38,087 nucleotides of DNA. Origin: Gemmatimonadota bacterium. GTDB taxonomy: Bacteria > Gemmatimonadota > Gemmatimonadetes > Longimicrobiales > Gaopeijiaceae. The stretch is taken from positions 1 through 38,087 of the forward strand of contig JAJDVT010000082.1 of the NCBI GenBank assembly GCA_022826005.1, given 5' to 3'. A program made the translations under genes and the position numbers. Shown here in pieces: positions 134-8,579 of this stretch. Each line of letters begins with the position of its first letter. Position 1 is the stretch's first letter. The notes under the pieces were generated by a model, which saw nothing but the letters and a program-made list of their open reading frames with translations, ran no database searches and was not told the origin of the DNA.

Positions 134-619
134 GGGCTAGATGTCACGCGACGCCTCGTACAAGCGAATCCAGAACTGAATGACCCTGTGGCGGAGTCGG
201 AGGCGGTTGTGCTGATCGACGAACTCGACCTCCACCTGCACCCGAAATGGCAGCGGCAAATCGTTGGCAAACTCACGGCGACGTTCCCGCAGTGCCAGTT
301 CATTGCGACGAGTCATTCTCCCCAGGTCGTCGCATCCGTGGATCCAGAGCAAGTTCACCTCATGACCCCCGATGGCGTGATCCGCCCGGACCGTACTCGC
401 GGGATGGACACCAACTGGATTCTTCGCCATCTCATGGAGGCCGATGACCGACCGATGGATGCGAGGGCCATCCTCGAGTCCGTAGAGCGTTTGGTCGAGG
501 AGGGCGCGTTCGCTGATGCGCGGACCGAGATTTCGGAGGCGCGACGGAGAGGTTTCGACTTGCCCGAGTGGTCGATTCTGGAGGCGCGGATCGCTCGCCT
601 GGAGATTCTCGCAGAATGA
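134..619 (+). pseudogene. ptuA: 5'-truncated Septu-type AAA ATPase (ptuA remnant)
   Basis: Only the C-terminal third of an ABC/RecF-like AAA ATPase is present. The frame is open from 92, but family-like sequence begins near 134. What remains includes a Walker B strand and D-loop (VVLIDELDLHLHPKWQ) and the H-switch (FIATSHSPQVV). The N-terminal Walker A half, several hundred residues in PtuA proteins, is missing and is not found in other frames of 1-133. The first start codon in the remaining frame is GTG at 188. The stop TGA overlaps the ATG of the next gene (ATGA), as in intact ptuAB pairs, where ATPase and HNH nuclease form one complex that restricts phage. Without its P-loop this copy should be inactive. 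The alternative is another OLD/RecF-like ATPase, but the HNH partner favours Septu. Confidence 0.7.
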
Positions 620-1326
620 AGTTCATCGCGAAGAGTGGAACCCCACGTGCTTACGCCGAGTGGTGTGCCGAGGTTGCAGGCACGCACCAAGCTGATTGGC
701 GGAACGTGCGTTCTTCCGAGAAGCGACAGGTGCTGGCGAGCATGATCGCGGAACAGGGTGGCCTGTGCGCCTATACGATGCGTCGAATCGACGAGCAGTC
801 GTCGCACGTGGAGCACGTCAAGCCGCAGAGTCGCTGCCGGGAGGACCATGCCGGATCCGATTTGGACTATGGGAATCTCGTGGCGTGCTTTCCGCGAGAT
901 GGCCAGGAGGCGTCGTGTCGCTATGGGGCACATCGGAAGGGTGGTTGGTGGGACGACGATGGGGCACGTTTCGTGTCACCCCTTCATCCCGTTTGCGAGC
1001 AGGTCTTTCGGTTTCGGCTCGACGGCGAGATTGAGGTGATCGACGATCGAATCGAAGCCAAGACCACTATCGACGTACTGGGTCTTGATAACACGAGTCT
1101 CACCGAGGACCGACGGCGCGTCATCGAGGAGTTCATTTTCGGACCGACCAGGAGCGACCCGATGACTCCGGCAGCTGCCCAACGTGCACTCGACCGGATT
1201 TGCGATCGTACTCACGATGGTACATTCCGCGAGTTCTGCGTCGTGCTGCGCGCGGCCCTGCAAGCGCACCTTCAGCGTCTCACGAGACTCCAGCAGCGTA
1301 GGAGACATGCAAGGAGGAACCGGTAA
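616..1326 (+). CDS. ptuB: HNH endonuclease, Septu PtuB / TIGR02646 type
   Basis: A 236-residue protein starting at the ATG that overlaps the ptuA stop by 4 nt. It has the PtuB-like layout: a C-x-x-[C/T] turn (C51, T54, so the second usual cysteine is replaced), the HNH core with H64-V-E66-H67 followed by KPQS, and the N87-L-V-x-C91 segment. Family members are DNA nucleases that work with the PtuA ATPase in Septu defence, and related pairs act in some retron systems. The reading frame shows no damage, although its partner is truncated, so the nuclease is either a recent orphan or working with another protein such as the adjacent R-like gene. The last codons contain the Shine-Dalgarno sequence of that gene, which ties the two together translationally. 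Confidence 0.8.
   Translation: MKFIAKSGTPRAYAEWCAEVAGTHQADWRNVRSSEKRQVLASMIAEQGGLCAYTMRRIDEQSSHVEHVKPQSRCREDHAGSDLDYGNLVACFPRDGQEASCRYGAHRKGGWWDDDGARFVSPLHPVCEQVFRFRLDGEIEVIDDRIEAKTTIDVLGLDNTSLTEDRRRVIEEFIFGPTRSDPMTPAAAQRALDRICDRTHDGTFREFCVVLRAALQAHLQRLTRLQQRRRHARRNR
1312..1317 (+). promoter_or_regulatory. Shine-Dalgarno AGGAGG setting the GTG start of the R-like gene
   Basis: AGGAGG sits inside the last codons of ptuB, 10 nt before a GTG at 1328 that lies in the frame of the downstream gene. The in-frame ATG at 1307 lies upstream of this site and lacks its own. The site therefore favours GTG 1328, one base after the ptuB stop. Confidence 0.7.
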
Positions 1327-1327
1327 C

Positions 1328-4300
1328 GTGCCGAGGGTCAGTCCCCACTCCGAAGCCGCCTTCGAGACCGTCATCGAGGGCCACCTACTCGCCCACGGCT
1401 ACCTCCCCATTGCCCGCGACGGCTTCGACCGTGAGCGCGCCATCTTCCCGGACACGACCCTCTCCTTCATTCTCGAGACACAGTCGGACCAATGGGCCCG
1501 TCTGGAAGCCCTCCTCGGCGACAAGACCGGCGAGCAAATCCTCGGCGACCTCTGCAAGTGGATGGACATCCACGGCTCGCTCGCGACCCTGCGACACGGC
1601 TTCAAGTGCTACGGCCGGACGTTCCGCGTGGCGTACTTCAAGGCGGCTCACGGGCTGAACCCCGAGCTTGAGAAGCGATACGCGGCCAACCGTCTCGGCC
1701 TCACGCGCCAGCTTCGCTACTCGCCGCGCTCTGAGAACTCGGTCGACGTTGCGCTAAGCGTGAACGGGATTCCCGTCGTCACGGCGGAGTTGAAAAACCC
1801 GCTGACCAGCCAGCGGGTCGAAGATGCCCGTCGGCAGTACAGTAAGGACCGGGACCCCCGCGACCCGATCTTCGATTTCAAGCGCCGCTCGCTGGTACAC
1901 TTCGCCGTGGACACCGAGTCGGTCCTCATGACCACCCGACTCGCCGGCGCAGCCACACGCTTCCTCCCCTTCGACAAGGGCCGCAACGGAGCAGCCGGAA
2001 ACCCTCCGGACCCTGCGGGCCGCAACTACCGCACGGCCTACCTGTGGGAGGAGGTGCTGGAGCGCGACAGTCTGCTCGACCTCCTCGCCAGGTTCATCCA
2101 CCTGCAGATCGACGTGAAGCGGGACGACCGGGGCCGCAGGGTGAAGACGGAGACCATGATCTTCCCGCGCTACCACCAACTGGAGGCCGTGCGCACCCTG
2201 GTGGACGCCGCTCGCAGCGAGGGAGTGGGACACAACTACCTCGTGGAACATTCCGCGGGCAGCGGCAAAAGCAACACGATCGGTTGGCTCACGCACCGGC
2301 TCGCGTCCCTGCATGACGCCGCCGACGAGCGCGTCTTCGACACCGTCGTCGTGGTCACGGACCGCGTTGTGCTCGACCAGCAGCTCCAGGATACGATCTA
2401 CCAGTTCGAACACAAGCGCGGGGTCGTCCACCGGATCGAAAAGAGCTCACGGCAGCTCGCCGAAGCCCTCGACAACGCGGTTCCGGTGGTCATCACCACC
2501 CTCCAGAAGTTCCCCTTCGTCACGCGCCGACTGCTCGAGATGGCCGAGAAGCGCGGAACGACCGGCACAGGCACACTCCCGACACGGCGTTGCGCGGTCA
2601 TCATCGACGAAGCACACAGCTCGCAGGGTGGCGAGACAGCAATCGATCTGAAGGGTGTACTGGGTGGCGAAGAGCTTCGCGAACGGGCACGCAAGCAAGC
2701 GGCCGAAGAGGGCCGCGAGGACATGGAGGAGGTCTTCCGCAGCATGGCCAAGCGCGGCAGGCAACCGAACCTCAGCTTCTTCGCCTTCACTGCCACGCCC
2801 AAGCACAAGACGTTTTCCGTGTTCGCCGACGGCGGGCGGCCGGCGCACCGCTACACCATGCGGCAGGCGATCGAGGAGGACTTCATCCTCGACGTGCTGA
2901 AGCACTACACGACCTACCGATCCTATTTCAAGCTGCTCAAGGCCTGCCGGGACGATCCGAACGTCGAACGCAAGAAGGCCGCCTTGGGGCTGGCGCGGTT
3001 CATGAAGCTGCACCCGCACAACATCGCGCAGAAGACCGAGGTGATGGTCGAGCACTTCCAGGCGGCGACTCGACACAAGATCGGCGGTCGCGCCAAGGCG
3101 ATGGTGGTGACCGGATCACGCCTGGAGGCGGTCCGCTACAAGCAGAGCTTCGACCGGTATATCCGTACCAAGGGATACGCCATCAAGTCGCTGGTGGCGT
3201 TCTCCGGAACAGTCGTGGACGACCAGCTCCCGGACATCTCCTACACGGAACCGGGGATGAACGACGGCATCTCCGAGAAGGAGTTGCCCGAGAGGTTCGC
3301 AACGCAGGAGTATCAGGTCCTGCTCGTCGCCGAGAAGTACCAGACCGGGTTCGACCAACCGCTCCTGCACACGATGTACGTAGACAAGCGACTCGCCGGC
3401 ATTCAGGCCGTGCAGACCCTGTCCAGGTTGAACCGCACTCACCCGCTAAAGGAGGACACGTTCGTTCTCGACTTCGTCAACAACCCGGAGGAGATCCGCG
3501 AGGCGTTCAAGACCTACTACGAGGGCGCGGAGATGGGCGAGGAGGTAGATCCCACCCGCATGTACGCTGTCAAGGCCGAACTCGACTCCTCGGGGATCTA
3601 TCTCGATGAGGAGGTCGAGCGCTTCAGCACCGTCTACTTCACGCCGAAGCGGCGGCAGAGCACCTTGGACCACCAGAAGATGAACGCCGCTCTGGACCCT
3701 GCAGTGTCGCGCTTCGAGGCACGCCGGGAGGCCGAGGCGGAAGAGGCGGAAGACTGGCGCGCCAAGATGTACGCTTTTCTGAGCCTCTACGGATTCCTGA
3801 GCCAGGTGATTCCCTACCAGGACTCGGATCTCGAGCGTCTGTATGTGTTTCTCCGCCATCTCGCGACGAAGCTGCCGCGTCGCGGCAGTGGACCGGTATA
3901 CCAGTTCGATGACGAGGTGCAACTAGAGTACTACCGCCTCCAGAAGATCAGCGAGGGCTCCATTTCGCTGCGTGCCGGGGAGGCCCATCCCCTCGACGGA
4001 CCCTCGGAGGTGGGAAGCGGCCTCGTGCGACCCCAACCCGTGCCGCTCTCCCAGCTTATCGACATCCTGAACGATCGAGTCGGAACCGAATTCAACCAGG
4101 CCGACCAGCTCTTCTTCGACCAGATCCTCGAAACCGCCATAGCCGACGACGGACTGCAACAGGCGGCCAAGGTGAACCCCGCTGAAAAGTTCAAGCTCGT
4201 CTTCGAGAGTCTGTTGAAGAGCCTGTTCATAGAGCGCATGGATCACAACGAGGACGTATTCGTCCACGTCATGAACGACGGACCCGTCCAGGAGATCGTG

Positions 4301-4885
4301 ACGGATTGGATGGCGTCAGAAGCGTACCGCCGCCTGCGGCGCCGCACCCAGGGCAGCTCCCCGGAACCTGCCCACGCCGACCCGCCACCGCCTCGCCTTC
4401 GAATCGTCACTCCTCGGCCGGAGGAGCGCTACGTGACCTGCGTGCCGCTCGTCCCTCTCGCGGCGGCGGCCGGAGCGTTCAGCGACCCCCAGCGCGTCGA
4501 CGAAGAGAACTTCGAGTGGGTCGCGTTCGAGACGGCCCACCGTCTCCGGCGCGGCATGTTCGTCGCCCGCGCGGTCGGCAAGTCCATGGAGCCGACCATC
4601 CCCGATGGCGCCTACTGCCTCTTCCGGGCCCCGGTGGACGGCACCCGACAGGGCAAGATTGTCCTCGTGCAGATGCGTGACGGCACTGATCCGGAGAGCG
4701 GTCAGCGGTACACCGTCAAGCGCTACGAGAGTGAGAAGGCGGCAGACAGCACGGCGTGGCGCCACACGGAGATCAGACTCGAGTCAGTCAACCCCGACTA
4801 TGAGCCGATCATTCTGACCAACGCGCAAGACGCGGCTCTGGCGGTCGTCGCCGAGTTCCTCGAGGTACTCGGAGGAGGTGTGTGA
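1328..4885 (+). CDS. Type I restriction R-like nuclease-helicase fused to a C-terminal S24 (LexA-like) domain
   Basis: The 1,185-residue product begins with an HsdR_N nuclease fold (D140, E154-L-K156, a PD-ExK signature). An SF2 translocase follows: Walker A GSGKS with K314, DEAH box D427-H430, then FTATPK, and helicase-C motifs such as KYQTGFDQP and QTLSRLNRTHP. This is the architecture of type I restriction R subunits. Unusually, the last about 140 residues resemble the LexA/UmuD S24 peptidase fold: S1086 in KSMEPTI, K1131 in TVKRY, and an Ala1048-Gly1049 bond in an Ala-rich segment 38 residues before the serine, matching LexA spacing. The domain could autocleave or act as a sensor, but this is inference. 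No hsdM or hsdS lies in the window, so modification is not provided locally. The gene is tightly coupled to ptuB, and its last bases overlap the following remnant. Confidence 0.85.
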   Translation: MPRVSPHSEAAFETVIEGHLLAHGYLPIARDGFDRERAIFPDTTLSFILETQSDQWARLEALLGDKTGEQILGDLCKWMDIHGSLATLRHGFKCYGRTFRVAYFKAAHGLNPELEKRYAANRLGLTRQLRYSPRSENSVDVALSVNGIPVVTAELKNPLTSQRVEDARRQYSKDRDPRDPIFDFKRRSLVHFAVDTESVLMTTRLAGAATRFLPFDKGRNGAAGNPPDPAGRNYRTAYLWEEVLERDSLLDLLARFIHLQIDVKRDDRGRRVKTETMIFPRYHQLEAVRTLVDAARSEGVGHNYLVEHSAGSGKSNTIGWLTHRLASLHDAADERVFDTVVVVTDRVVLDQQLQDTIYQFEHKRGVVHRIEKSSRQLAEALDNAVPVVITTLQKFPFVTRRLLEMAEKRGTTGTGTLPTRRCAVIIDEAHSSQGGETAIDLKGVLGGEELRERARKQAAEEGREDMEEVFRSMAKRGRQPNLSFFAFTATPKHKTFSVFADGGRPAHRYTMRQAIEEDFILDVLKHYTTYRSYFKLLKACRDDPNVERKKAALGLARFMKLHPHNIAQKTEVMVEHFQAATRHKIGGRAKAMVVTGSRLEAVRYKQSFDRYIRTKGYAIKSLVAFSGTVVDDQLPDISYTEPGMNDGISEKELPERFATQEYQVLLVAEKYQTGFDQPLLHTMYVDKRLAGIQAVQTLSRLNRTHPLKEDTFVLDFVNNPEEIREAFKTYYEGAEMGEEVDPTRMYAVKAELDSSGIYLDEEVERFSTVYFTPKRRQSTLDHQKMNAALDPAVSRFEARREAEAEEAEDWRAKMYAFLSLYGFLSQVIPYQDSDLERLYVFLRHLATKLPRRGSGPVYQFDDEVQLEYYRLQKISEGSISLRAGEAHPLDGPSEVGSGLVRPQPVPLSQLIDILNDRVGTEFNQADQLFFDQILETAIADDGLQQAAKVNPAEKFKLVFESLLKSLFIERMDHNEDVFVHVMNDGPVQEIVTDWMASEAYRRLRRRTQGSSPEPAHADPPPPRLRIVTPRPEERYVTCVPLVPLAAAAGAFSDPQRVDEENFEWVAFETAHRLRRGMFVARAVGKSMEPTIPDGAYCLFRAPVDGTRQGKIVLVQMRDGTDPESGQRYTVKRYESEKAADSTAWRHTEIRLESVNPDYEPIILTNAQDAALAVVAEFLEVLGGGV

Positions 4886-5325
4886 GGAACGCTTCAGGAC
4901 CATCTGGCATACCCCCTGGGAGCGGTAAGAGCCTCACGATGGTGCGGCAGGCGGAGTGGAACTGCCAACTCAGCCACGTGGACGGGCGGGTGCTCGTCGT
5001 CACCAACCTCAGGGGCCTCGACAAGCAGCTCGCGAAGGTCTTCAAGGGTGTGGACGAGGACATCTACCACACGAAGAGCGGAGCCGATCTCGTGAAGGCG
5101 CTCCGCGACCCCGCCAAATCCCTGATCTGCTCGCTCGTCCACAAGTTCGGCACCTCGGAAGAAGGCAACATCGACCAATACCTGAGCGACCGCCAGAGCC
5201 GCATCCCAGATGCCCCGGCCACCCGGACGCAGACGCCATATGAGGAGGTCGCGAAGGAGCGGTCACACTCTCTGGAGCGGCTGGTGGACGTACCTCCCGT
5301 TGCACTACCGCTGTCTGTAGCATGA
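4882..5325 (+). pseudogene. Remnant of a canonical type I HsdR motor domain
   Basis: An open frame of 147 codons from a GTG overlapping the previous stop (GTGTGA). Residues about 10-95 match the first RecA-like lobe of classical HsdR: a P-loop (GSGKSLTM), a strand equivalent to VLIVTDRTDLD (here VLVVTNLRGLD, without the usual acid), then KVFKGVDEDIYHTKSGADL and ICSLVHKFG. The N-terminal nuclease, the DEAH box, the second helicase lobe and the C-terminal domain are all absent, and the last 40 residues look unrelated. It is not a duplicate of the preceding gene, whose motor is of a more divergent type, so it records an older, separate restriction locus at this site. It is probably not translated into a working protein. 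Confidence 0.65.
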
Positions 5326-5335
5326 AGGGTACTCC

Positions 5336-6466
5336 ATGGACCACGAATCACTGATCCGCCGGTTGTCTCTTCCCCGCTTTCTCTACCGAGCCGGAGCAGT
5401 TGCGCTCGACGGGTCCGGTCCGTACGCGTCCGGTCTTGCCACCTCGCTGTTTCAAGATTCCGTCGAGGCCTTCCTGCGTATCTTGGCCGAGACTGGCGGA
5501 GTCAACGTCGGTCCCCAAGTATCGTTCGATGCTCTAATCGACAAGGTAGGCGTCTGCTACGGGTCCGTTTCCGAACACAAGGCGGCGCTGTCCCGACTCA
5601 ACAAGGCACGAGTCGGCTTCAAACATCACGCCGTTTCTGTGTTCCGCGACGATGCGGTCCATTTCCGCGAGACCGCAAGAACGTTTCTGACGGAGGTAAC
5701 GAAAGACGCCCTGGGTCTCGAATTCGAACGTGCATCGCTTATATCCGCGATAGGTCACCGACGCACAGAAAATTGGCTCCACAAGGCCCAAGCAGCACTC
5801 GCCGACGATGACTATAGTACGGCGTTGAAACACGCGGCAACGGCTTTCCAGATATACTTGAATTCTAGATCTGTACATAAAGCACGAGGCAACAGCCATC
5901 GTCTTTGGGGCCCGCCAGAGAACTACGAATCAGGTCATCCGCTGCGGTCATTTGCGCGATGGGTAATAGCTCATTTTGATGAAATACATATGGCCATGGA
6001 CCTTCTGAGCCACGGTTTGGATATCACGGGATATTGGCGATTTCTGGAACTGACTTCGCATGGGGCCCCTACAATGACGGGTGCGCTTTCGACCTCCGGG
6101 GGGCCTGCTTCTACTCATGCCGATGGTCTCACCAAGGAAGACGCCACGTTCTGCGTTGAGTTCGTTGTGGATTCTGCGCTGCGAATCGGTGCGCGCCATA
6201 CTCAGAAGGACCCTTGGAGACGGCTTGTGCAGATTGGGCAAGTAGAAGCGAAGCAGGAGTCTGTGGTCAGGGTGTATCCGCGGGATGACTCGGAGGTGAT
6301 CCGGCCGATCTCGATCGGCGAAGAGCTCACCGTCGTGGCAGGGTACATTGATCAGGTGGAGGACTATGTGGCCATTCTTCAGGACGACGAGGCCGCCTAC
6401 GTCGAGATGGGTCACTTGCGCCTGTTGAGCGGCAAACTCTCAGACGATGCGTGGGGACCGGACTGA
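5336..6466 (+). CDS. Unrecognised protein with an Rx4H (HEPN-like) motif
   Basis: A 376-residue protein with ATG at 5336, preceded by GAAGGG. I do not recognise the family. The N-terminal half looks helical: residues 36-52 form an amphipathic helix with acidic D41 and E44, followed at 89-99 by NKARVGFKHHA, which contains R92-x4-H97, the spacing of HEPN ribonuclease motifs. Residues 145-175 form another helical repeat-like block. The C-terminal part (about 290-360) looks beta-rich. No signal peptide or membrane segment is visible. The gene is visibly more AT-rich than the metabolic genes further along, and with its defence neighbours this suggests horizontal transfer. A role as a toxin or effector of the island is possible but rests only on one short motif and location. 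Confidence 0.75.
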   Translation: MDHESLIRRLSLPRFLYRAGAVALDGSGPYASGLATSLFQDSVEAFLRILAETGGVNVGPQVSFDALIDKVGVCYGSVSEHKAALSRLNKARVGFKHHAVSVFRDDAVHFRETARTFLTEVTKDALGLEFERASLISAIGHRRTENWLHKAQAALADDDYSTALKHAATAFQIYLNSRSVHKARGNSHRLWGPPENYESGHPLRSFARWVIAHFDEIHMAMDLLSHGLDITGYWRFLELTSHGAPTMTGALSTSGGPASTHADGLTKEDATFCVEFVVDSALRIGARHTQKDPWRRLVQIGQVEAKQESVVRVYPRDDSEVIRPISIGEELTVVAGYIDQVEDYVAILQDDEAAYVEMGHLRLLSGKLSDDAWGPD

Positions 6467-6656: not shown

Positions 6657-8438
6657 CTACTCCGGTTCCGCACCGGCCATGCCGCTACCGAGAGCAACCC
6701 CAAGCAACTCTGTCAGTCTCGTCTTCATCCTTTCCCGTCGCGCTTCGTACCACTCTATGAAGCCAACCATGCTATCTGGCACATTACCAAGATCAGCGTC
6801 GCCGACACGTGCCGCGCGATCCGTGTTACTCAGGCCCGCCAGCCACGCCGTCGGACTCTTGGCTGCCTTCTCGAGATTGTCGGTCTTTGTGAGGAACTGG
6901 AGATTCGCGACCCGATCCCGCCGGTCCAGGATCGCCTGCTGCTCCGCTGGCTCAAGGTCCAACTTGCGCATCTTTGGGATCGTGAAATCTCTCTGAGGGA
7001 ACACATGGTCGATGTGGAACTCGGCCGTCAGCCCAAAGTCTGGAAACAATAGCGCCAGCACCGAGAAGGCTGAGCCGCCCCGCGAGTCAAGTAGGTCGTC
7101 TAGCTCTTCCTCCACAAAACGAAGCGGTCTGCCGATACTGGCAAACGCCGCGTCCATGGCCGCCGTCGAGAACCCCGCAATGCACTCCTGGTTGATCACG
7201 TCACGAGCTTTCTGGAGCGTCGTGTCGAGTCCCGCCCCGAACGTGCCGCGCTTTAGGAGAGCGCGTCTCGTCCAATCGCGAATCGCCGCAGCATCGTCAT
7301 TGAACCTCGATTTGTTGATGTCGTGCTCCTCGAGTCCACGCCGATAGACGTAGTGGGCGATCGGGATGATGACACTGCCCGCCGTCAGCGTGTGTGCGTC
7401 ATACCCCATTCGCCGAGATAGAATCAGCGCGGCCGTTCGTAGGGCTTCACGAATGCGAGGCCACGCGCTTTCGATGGCTGACATGTTGCTGGTTGTGAAA
7501 TTCCGGACCTTGAATCCAATGCTAGGGACACCCGTCAAAACCAGACATGACTTCAGGACCAAGTCCTGTGTGAAGGCAAATCCCTTCATGACTTCGTTGA
7601 GTTCGTCTACGCAGTCATCAATCTCCTCCCGGGCATCTAGAGTGGCGAATGCGGCGGTCGCCATGCTGAGCAGCAGATCTGAATAACGCAAGACGGTGCC
7701 ACCGCTGTTGACCCGGATAAAGATGTTCAGCACCTTCTCGATGTCCTGTTCGCTTTCCCGATAGTAGCTGATCACCGCATCCTTGTGCACCAAGTTCCAC
7801 AGCCGAGACAAGCACAGTCGAGCATGGGCGTTCTTCTCAAGGGAATGGTCGTCAAGGTACGCGGATGCATCGAGGAACAGGTCACTCCAATCGCGGACCT
7901 CTGCGACCCTGAACCAATGGAATCGATCATCTGACTCTGACGCGTTCACCTGATCCTCTGTTAAGAACCGGAAATCGTACTTAGACTCCACATCGGTGAC
8001 TGTCGATGCTGGCGCGTTCAGGTTGAGGTGCAGTGTCCGCTTGGGAAATGCACTTGGGTTATCCCATCGACCCCACTTTCGCTTCCGGGCGTAGCTTCCG
8101 CGCAATCCGATGTTCAAGGCGGTAAGTCGCTGTTGCCCGTCTAGGACGGCAGTCACACCATTCGCTTCACCAAACGGCTGCCACGGCTCGTTGCGACGCT
8201 TGTTGCGCTGGTGATAGTCGTCCATGAACTTGTAGAACTTGAAGTCCTCCACTCGCTCGGCCTCCACATGCCAGAACAGGAACGTGCCTATCGGGTACTC
8301 CCGCATTAGGGAGTCGAACAGGTTCGTGATCTGCTCCGGTTTCCACTCGAACTTCCGTTGGATTGCAGGCAGAACGTAGCGGTTGCTACTGATGTCCTTG
8401 AGCACTTCCGCGATCGTAAGCGGCGTCTGGAATGCCAT
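6657..8438 (-). CDS. GmrSD-type protein (DUF262 + DUF1524 HNH)
   Basis: A 593-residue protein. The N-terminal DUF262 (ParB/Srx-like) domain shows LPAIQRKFEWK at 23-33 and the signature DGQQR at 100-104 followed by LTAL. The C-terminal DUF1524 domain carries the HNH motif H475-I-D-H478. This is the fused form of GmrS and GmrD, type IV modification-dependent restriction enzymes in which the DUF262 part uses nucleotide and the HNH part cuts modified phage DNA. Related proteins occur in BREX and other defence loci. Start ATG at 8438 was chosen because upstream residues in the longer frame are low-complexity leader translation. A G-rich leader covers the ribosome-binding region. The gene is convergent with the Rx4H gene, and its base composition is lower in GC than the cox operon next to it, consistent with acquisition as part of the defence island. 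Confidence 0.85.
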   Translation of the reverse strand: MAFQTPLTIAEVLKDISSNRYVLPAIQRKFEWKPEQITNLFDSLMREYPIGTFLFWHVEAERVEDFKFYKFMDDYHQRNKRRNEPWQPFGEANGVTAVLDGQQRLTALNIGLRGSYARKRKWGRWDNPSAFPKRTLHLNLNAPASTVTDVESKYDFRFLTEDQVNASESDDRFHWFRVAEVRDWSDLFLDASAYLDDHSLEKNAHARLCLSRLWNLVHKDAVISYYRESEQDIEKVLNIFIRVNSGGTVLRYSDLLLSMATAAFATLDAREEIDDCVDELNEVMKGFAFTQDLVLKSCLVLTGVPSIGFKVRNFTTSNMSAIESAWPRIREALRTAALILSRRMGYDAHTLTAGSVIIPIAHYVYRRGLEEHDINKSRFNDDAAAIRDWTRRALLKRGTFGAGLDTTLQKARDVINQECIAGFSTAAMDAAFASIGRPLRFVEEELDDLLDSRGGSAFSVLALLFPDFGLTAEFHIDHVFPQRDFTIPKMRKLDLEPAEQQAILDRRDRVANLQFLTKTDNLEKAAKSPTAWLAGLSNTDRAARVGDADLGNVPDSMVGFIEWYEARRERMKTRLTELLGVALGSGMAGAEPE

Positions 8439-8445
8439 CGTTCTA

Positions 8446-8470
8446 CCCCCCACCCCCTTCTCCCACACCC
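8446..8470 (-). promoter_or_regulatory. Potential G-quadruplex in the leader of the GmrSD gene
   Basis: On the coding (minus) strand four G-runs, GGG-TGT-GGG-AGAA-GGGGG-T-GGGGGG, end 7 nt before the ATG and replace an ordinary Shine-Dalgarno sequence. The pattern satisfies the usual G3+N1-7 quadruplex rule. A folded leader could restrain translation of the nuclease; that effect is inference. Confidence 0.4.
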
Positions 8471-8579
8471 GCTTCGGCCCAGTCACCATTGCCACGCTCA
8501 GACCTTCCCCCACTCCCCTTCACCTGCCTCGCGCCGGCCCCGATCCCCGCGCTCACACCTAGCCATCCCACGCACCACG

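Follow-up and report, generated by a model that had tools for sequence, protein, structure and literature searches.

Our studies have identified a protein which, by its domain content, is a type I restriction R subunit (HsdR) joined to a protease domain of the LexA/CI/UmuD type (S24), and for which DNA translocation and cleavage are predicted. HsdR and S24 are each already known and both are detectable with Pfam; what appears to be new is their combination and its spread. A search of open-access PMC returned no description of S24 on HsdR, of S24 in connection with restriction or helicases, or of the spread of this module. We tentatively propose that the fusion is a form of built-in restriction alleviation, in which HsdR-S24 would cut itself after DNA damage, probably with stimulation by RecA, and restriction would be turned off.

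Results

The hsdR-S24 gene lies at 1328-4885 on the forward strand of the window, by which we mean the entire 38,087-nucleotide stretch of DNA that was analyzed, and encodes 1,185 amino acids that form an R subunit with a C-terminal LexA-like protease domain. Its frame is uninterrupted from a GTG at 1328 to the stop codon at 4883-4885, and the strong Shine-Dalgarno sequence that serves this GTG (AAGGAGG, 1311-1317, forward strand) can be read directly. On the same strand, the gene encodes an HSDR_N PD-ExK nuclease domain (1676-1948; residues 117-207) with D140, E154 and K156, a SWI2/SNF2 motor (2174-2899; residues 283-524) with K314 and a DEAH motif at 427-430, and type I R domain 3 (3278-3451; residues 651-708), solved HsdR chains matching residues 651-706. 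A variable linker (4343-4396; residues 1006-1023), near which S24-less relatives end, leads into the S24 module, our candidate portable cassette (4397-4876; residues 1024-1183). Alignment of modules places the predicted self-cleavage site at Ala1048-Gly1049 (4469-4474) and the predicted catalytic residues at Ser1086 (4583-4585) and Lys1131 (4718-4720). All of the individual residues named here, from the nuclease to the protease, fall in invariant columns of an alignment of 29 full-length homologues. The first-pass annotation had described a nuclease, an SF2 motor and an S24 domain within this single protein, and every residue that it named was found where it had been placed.

The four Pfam domains of the product all score over their curated cut-offs (E-values: HSDR_N 1.3e-12, SWI2_SNF2 2.1e-24, T1R_D3 1.8e-10, Peptidase_S24 5.8e-9), the Peptidase_S24 match at residues 1045-1169 reaching 36.1 bits against a cut-off of 23.3. 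The protein has the same PD-ExK nuclease, SWI2/SNF2 motor and domain 3 as type I HsdR proteins such as EcoR124I (2w00) and EcoKI, with a score of 188 against the type I HsdR model TIGR00348 that is under the cut-off of 284.6, and most of its homologues likewise lie in operons with HsdM and HsdS genes; in contrast to type I HsdR, it adds the C-terminal S24 module. It also differs from LexA: no Pfam match to an HTH domain was found in the product at E up to 1, and the part N-terminal of the module is HsdR, so that a LexA-type protease is joined here to a restriction motor and nuclease rather than to the HTH of a repressor.

A fold model of residues 1015-1185, built from 75 modules, had a pLDDT of 80.7 and a pTM of 0.79, with low confidence in the cleavage-loop region. 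The first matches to this model in Foldseek and VIA-align were LexA, lambda CI and UmuD, with Z up to 12.3 (Thermotoga maritima LexA); the top 30 VIA entries were all S24 proteins, and the structural matches include LexA, CI and UmuD chains solved with RecA filaments. A sequence-profile search of the PDB with the module gave nothing at 0.01, and the claim of an S24 fold therefore stands on Pfam and on structure comparison. Structure prediction and PDB comparison agree with the earlier proposal of an S24 fold at the C-terminus, the predicted fold being that of LexA, CI and UmuD with the same Ser-Lys dyad and an Ala-Gly loop upstream of the Ser. A full-length AlphaFold model from 29 homologues (pLDDT 59, pTM 0.44) was too poor for placing the module. 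The spacing of the three sites had been said to match that of LexA and UmuD, and this holds approximately: G1049 and S1086 are 37 residues apart and S1086 and K1131 are 45 apart, values close to but not identical with the 34 and 37 of E. coli LexA, the Ser-to-Lys distance being 8 residues longer. In alignment, Ala1048-Gly1049 falls on the VPEIDVRASAG site found in repressor-like S24 proteins of the same genome; this genome encodes RecA and a LexA-like S24 protein. We regard the protease domain as almost certainly intact and self-cleavage by the S24 module of HsdR as likely.

Conservation was assessed in two sets. A pattern-based scan of GTDB species genomes yielded 242 encoded relatives, from which 80 loci were retained, and an HMM search covered 396 genomes of a single phylum (that of an Acidobacteria MAG), with the module present in 33 of them. 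When the two sets were combined, the equivalents of Ser1086 and Lys1131 were kept in 112 of 112 modules. Part of the pattern set was chosen by its Ser motif; the Ser is retained also in 46 pattern-scan rows that do not match this motif and in the 30 loci found with the HMM. At the cleavage site, P1 is Ala in 110 of the 110 modules that cover it and P2 is Ala in 109 (P2-P1 is Ala-Ala), while P1' is Gly in 106 of 110, with Ser or Thr replacing it in a few relatives. The Ser, Lys and Ala-Gly positions proposed in the first-pass annotation are thus conserved among homologues, and the fusion recurs in many phyla, in operons where hsdM and hsdS are followed by one or two accessory genes and then by hsdR-S24. 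Numerous independent contigs carry the fusion, which rules out an assembly or annotation error behind it. Pairwise dN/dS over the module, for pairs with non-saturated dS only, is about 0.07-0.19; the S24 fusion is under purifying selection. Searches for the module gave one match in plasmids and one distant LexA in phages, and the cassette therefore resides mainly in genome and MAG contigs.

S24 is not universal in this HsdR family, since close relatives exist without the module or with other extensions. Close HsdR relatives that lack S24 range from 66 to 76% identity. Plasmid pYP1 of Ketogulonicigenium vulgare has an hsdM-hsdS-AAA-HNH-hsdR operon, in the same order as window-type operons, whose HsdR is 74.8% identical to the window core and stops about 10 residues past it; no S24 module was found on this plasmid stretch. 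A second HsdR of the window's genome, 41% identical and with hsdS upstream, also lacks S24. These two proteins agree with the earlier view that such a control layer is not standard for R subunits, and because close relatives do without the module, the K. vulgare homologue among them, S24 can be considered a plug-in domain. At least four changes of the S24 label are required on the HsdR tree. Several HsdR pairs show a synonymous divergence far higher in the module than in the core (dS of 2.09 versus 0.68 for L031/L038), which suggests, from the sequences compared, that the module has been exchanged among HsdRs by recombination. Other domains occupy the same C-terminal place in some relatives: a DUF4357-containing extension in a 73% identical HsdR (L184) and SLFN_AlbA_2 in a sister clade (L153-L160).

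The accessory genes of homologous loci encode a PtuA-like ATPase with a PtuB-like HNH nuclease, another ATPase, or RhuM, and the PtuA-like and PtuB-like pair between hsdS and hsdR is common to L016, L043 and the K. vulgare plasmid (L176). The window shows the 3' part of a PtuA-like ATPase gene (140-619, forward strand), its upstream portion interrupted by an IS end, followed by the gene for a PtuB-like HNH nuclease (616-1326, forward strand), which lies between hsdS and hsdR in homologous operons, and by hsdR-S24. Positions 1-125 recur exactly at three further sites in the genome. Two of these sites are contig ends, and the internal one adjoins a DDE_Tnp_1_4 (IS1380-like) transposase gene, indicating that the contig breaks where an IS interrupts ptuA. 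Most homologous loci contain genes for HsdM and HsdS partners; no close HsdM turned up in the window's draft assembly, where the best local match to a homologous operon's HsdM has 43% identity. Downstream, an ORF at 4882-5325 overlaps the hsdR stop codon and has a 30% match to 323-405 of L002, another HsdR motor; it looks like what remains of a second hsdR. A 376-residue protein (5336-6466, forward strand) without a significant Pfam match (weak HEPN, 0.068) separates hsdR from a reverse-strand gene (6657-8513) for a GmrSD_N (DUF262) type IV-like restriction protein, whose position near the hsdR locus marks this contig edge as a defence island.

The module is also found on other enzymes. Almost every carrier that could be identified is either an ATP-driven restriction or defence enzyme or a direct partner of one. 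In about 30 loci it belongs to DruE-like DEAD/MZB helicases of ~1,970 residues; this carrier differs from HsdR, while its C-terminal S24 module is ~55-60% identical and keeps the Ser, the Lys and the Ala-Gly. Further carriers are HindI-like HsdR, type III Res-like proteins and Schlafen-group-3 helicases. In addition, four two-gene pairs (L027, L042, L051 and L078) combine a PLD-helicase with a type IIG/ISP-like methyltransferase-specificity protein that bears the module at its C-terminus. Some relatives carry it internally. In a HindI-like HsdR (L054, 9095-12706), the module forms a clean in-frame insertion that separates nuclease from motor, shortly before Walker A, and in EcoEI-like HsdRs (L242, 2917-5676, reverse strand; L244, 70-2787) it is inserted within HSDR_N, between an N-terminal helix and the ADYVLYD...IEAK core.

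Discussion

It is only partly clear how restriction enzymes are kept from attacking damaged DNA of their own host. We propose that in an undamaged cell the fused enzyme would restrict foreign DNA with HsdM and HsdS. Upon DNA damage, a co-protease, which would most likely be the RecA-ssDNA filament, would bring the Ala1048-Gly1049 loop into the active site formed by Ser1086 and Lys1131, and the protein would cut itself. Restriction would then be off, sparing the host chromosome while repair leaves unmethylated sites. With a C-terminal module, the cut alone would leave nuclease and motor intact, so inactivation would need a second step. The cut would leave HsdR with a new C-terminus (...LAAAA), a possible ClpXP degron; C-termini ending in -AA can be ClpXP degrons, as is the case for the LexA N-fragment. 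If cleavage does occur, we think it reasonably likely that it turns the enzyme off rather than on. The internal insertions in relatives favour inactivation over the release of an active effector, because a cut there would sever the nuclease from the motor or split the nuclease.

Some observations count against this proposal. The DruE-like carriers are one such case, as they belong to Druantia-type systems, which are not known to use methylation, and in the type IIG/ISP-like pairs the module is borne by the methyltransferase-specificity protein, not by the helicase. In its favour, DNA damage is known to lead to the shut-off of type I enzymes, in EcoKI by way of ClpXP (PMC3874165, PMC4231737), with the HsdR degron of EcoKI still unidentified (PMC4231737). 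The proposed outcome for HsdR-S24 is the same, loss of HsdR activity after DNA damage; however, in EcoKI the translocating state provides the signal for ClpXP, which acts in trans, whereas the window HsdR has its protease domain in cis. A cis-encoded LexA-type protease would reach an EcoKI-like shut-off of restriction by a different route. EcoKI restriction alleviation is, however, independent of the SOS response (PMC11109961), which again counts against the proposed switch.

Whether RecA is the trigger seems to us, by analogy with LexA, an evenly balanced question, and the open-access literature searched yielded no paper on LexA-RecA contact residues. An off-switch answering instead to a phage protein, or to a stalled or long-lived translocation state, is unlikely. 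In its favour, ClpXP recognizes EcoKI HsdR during long-lived translocation. Moreover, carriers share about 55-70% identity over the module, whereas LexA shares only ~20% with it across the aligned core, and the module may thus have a retuned surface. Against this reading, both the dyad and the cleavage site resemble those of RecA-responsive proteins, and chains of LexA, CI and UmuD complexed with RecA filaments are among the best structural matches. The direction of the switch could also be reversed, with S24 restraining the effector until cleavage frees its full nuclease or motor activity, in the manner of UmuD and UmuD'. A C-terminal module could indeed be removed without harm to the core, and S24-less relatives finish at the same point as the core. 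We nevertheless hold activation to be improbable, since a cut at the internal insertions of L054, L242 and L244 would destroy the enzyme, and the apparently complete S24-less operons imply that the core should need no restraint.

Proteolysis itself may be questioned. The C-terminal domains of S24 proteins, LexA among them, dimerize, and this precedent, together with the Ser or Thr found at P1' in a few relatives, would allow for a module that serves in dimerization, RecA docking or as a DNA-proximal scaffold. We consider a non-proteolytic role rather unlikely, as the invariance of Ser and Lys across 112 modules would be unexpected were catalysis dispensable; it is this invariant dyad, with the Ala-Gly loop, that points to proteolysis rather than to a scaffold. 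A neutral passenger domain or annotation accident without any role is very improbable: although the window copy sits in an IS-interrupted operon, the low omega over the module and its spread across many phyla, with repeated acquisition and exchange, argue against it.

If the self-cleaving off-switch is correct, many bacteria would encode, in a LexA-type protease that acts in cis on HsdR, a direct solution to the problem of sparing damaged host DNA. HsdRs of the window type and the K. vulgare type, about 75% identical and with or without the module, provide natural controls. More speculatively, and with some doubt on our part, the module may be a portable, self-cleaving, damage-sensing cassette that has been recombined onto unrelated ATP-driven defence enzymes as a common off-switch triggered by the RecA filament. 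On the module tree, changes of carrier are weakly supported. The presence of such a cassette on helicases of the DruE, type III-like and Schlafen-like kinds would mean that damage sensing and immunity are wired together post-translationally, as an SOS regulon of immune effectors with no repressor involved.

Minor variations were seen among the loci with the module. On a Halomonas plasmid (L177, 3974-6444), the Schlafen-group-3 helicase and the S24 module are encoded by separate, overlapping ORFs, unlike in L240 and L241, where the two are fused. Two loci were kept out of the reasoning above. In L039 (9519-10444), a Phd/VapB-like antitoxin is followed by the N-terminal part of VapC (PIN) fused to the module, which may be a recombination chimera or debris, and in L074 an HsdR N-terminus adjoins the module, which may likewise be recombination debris.
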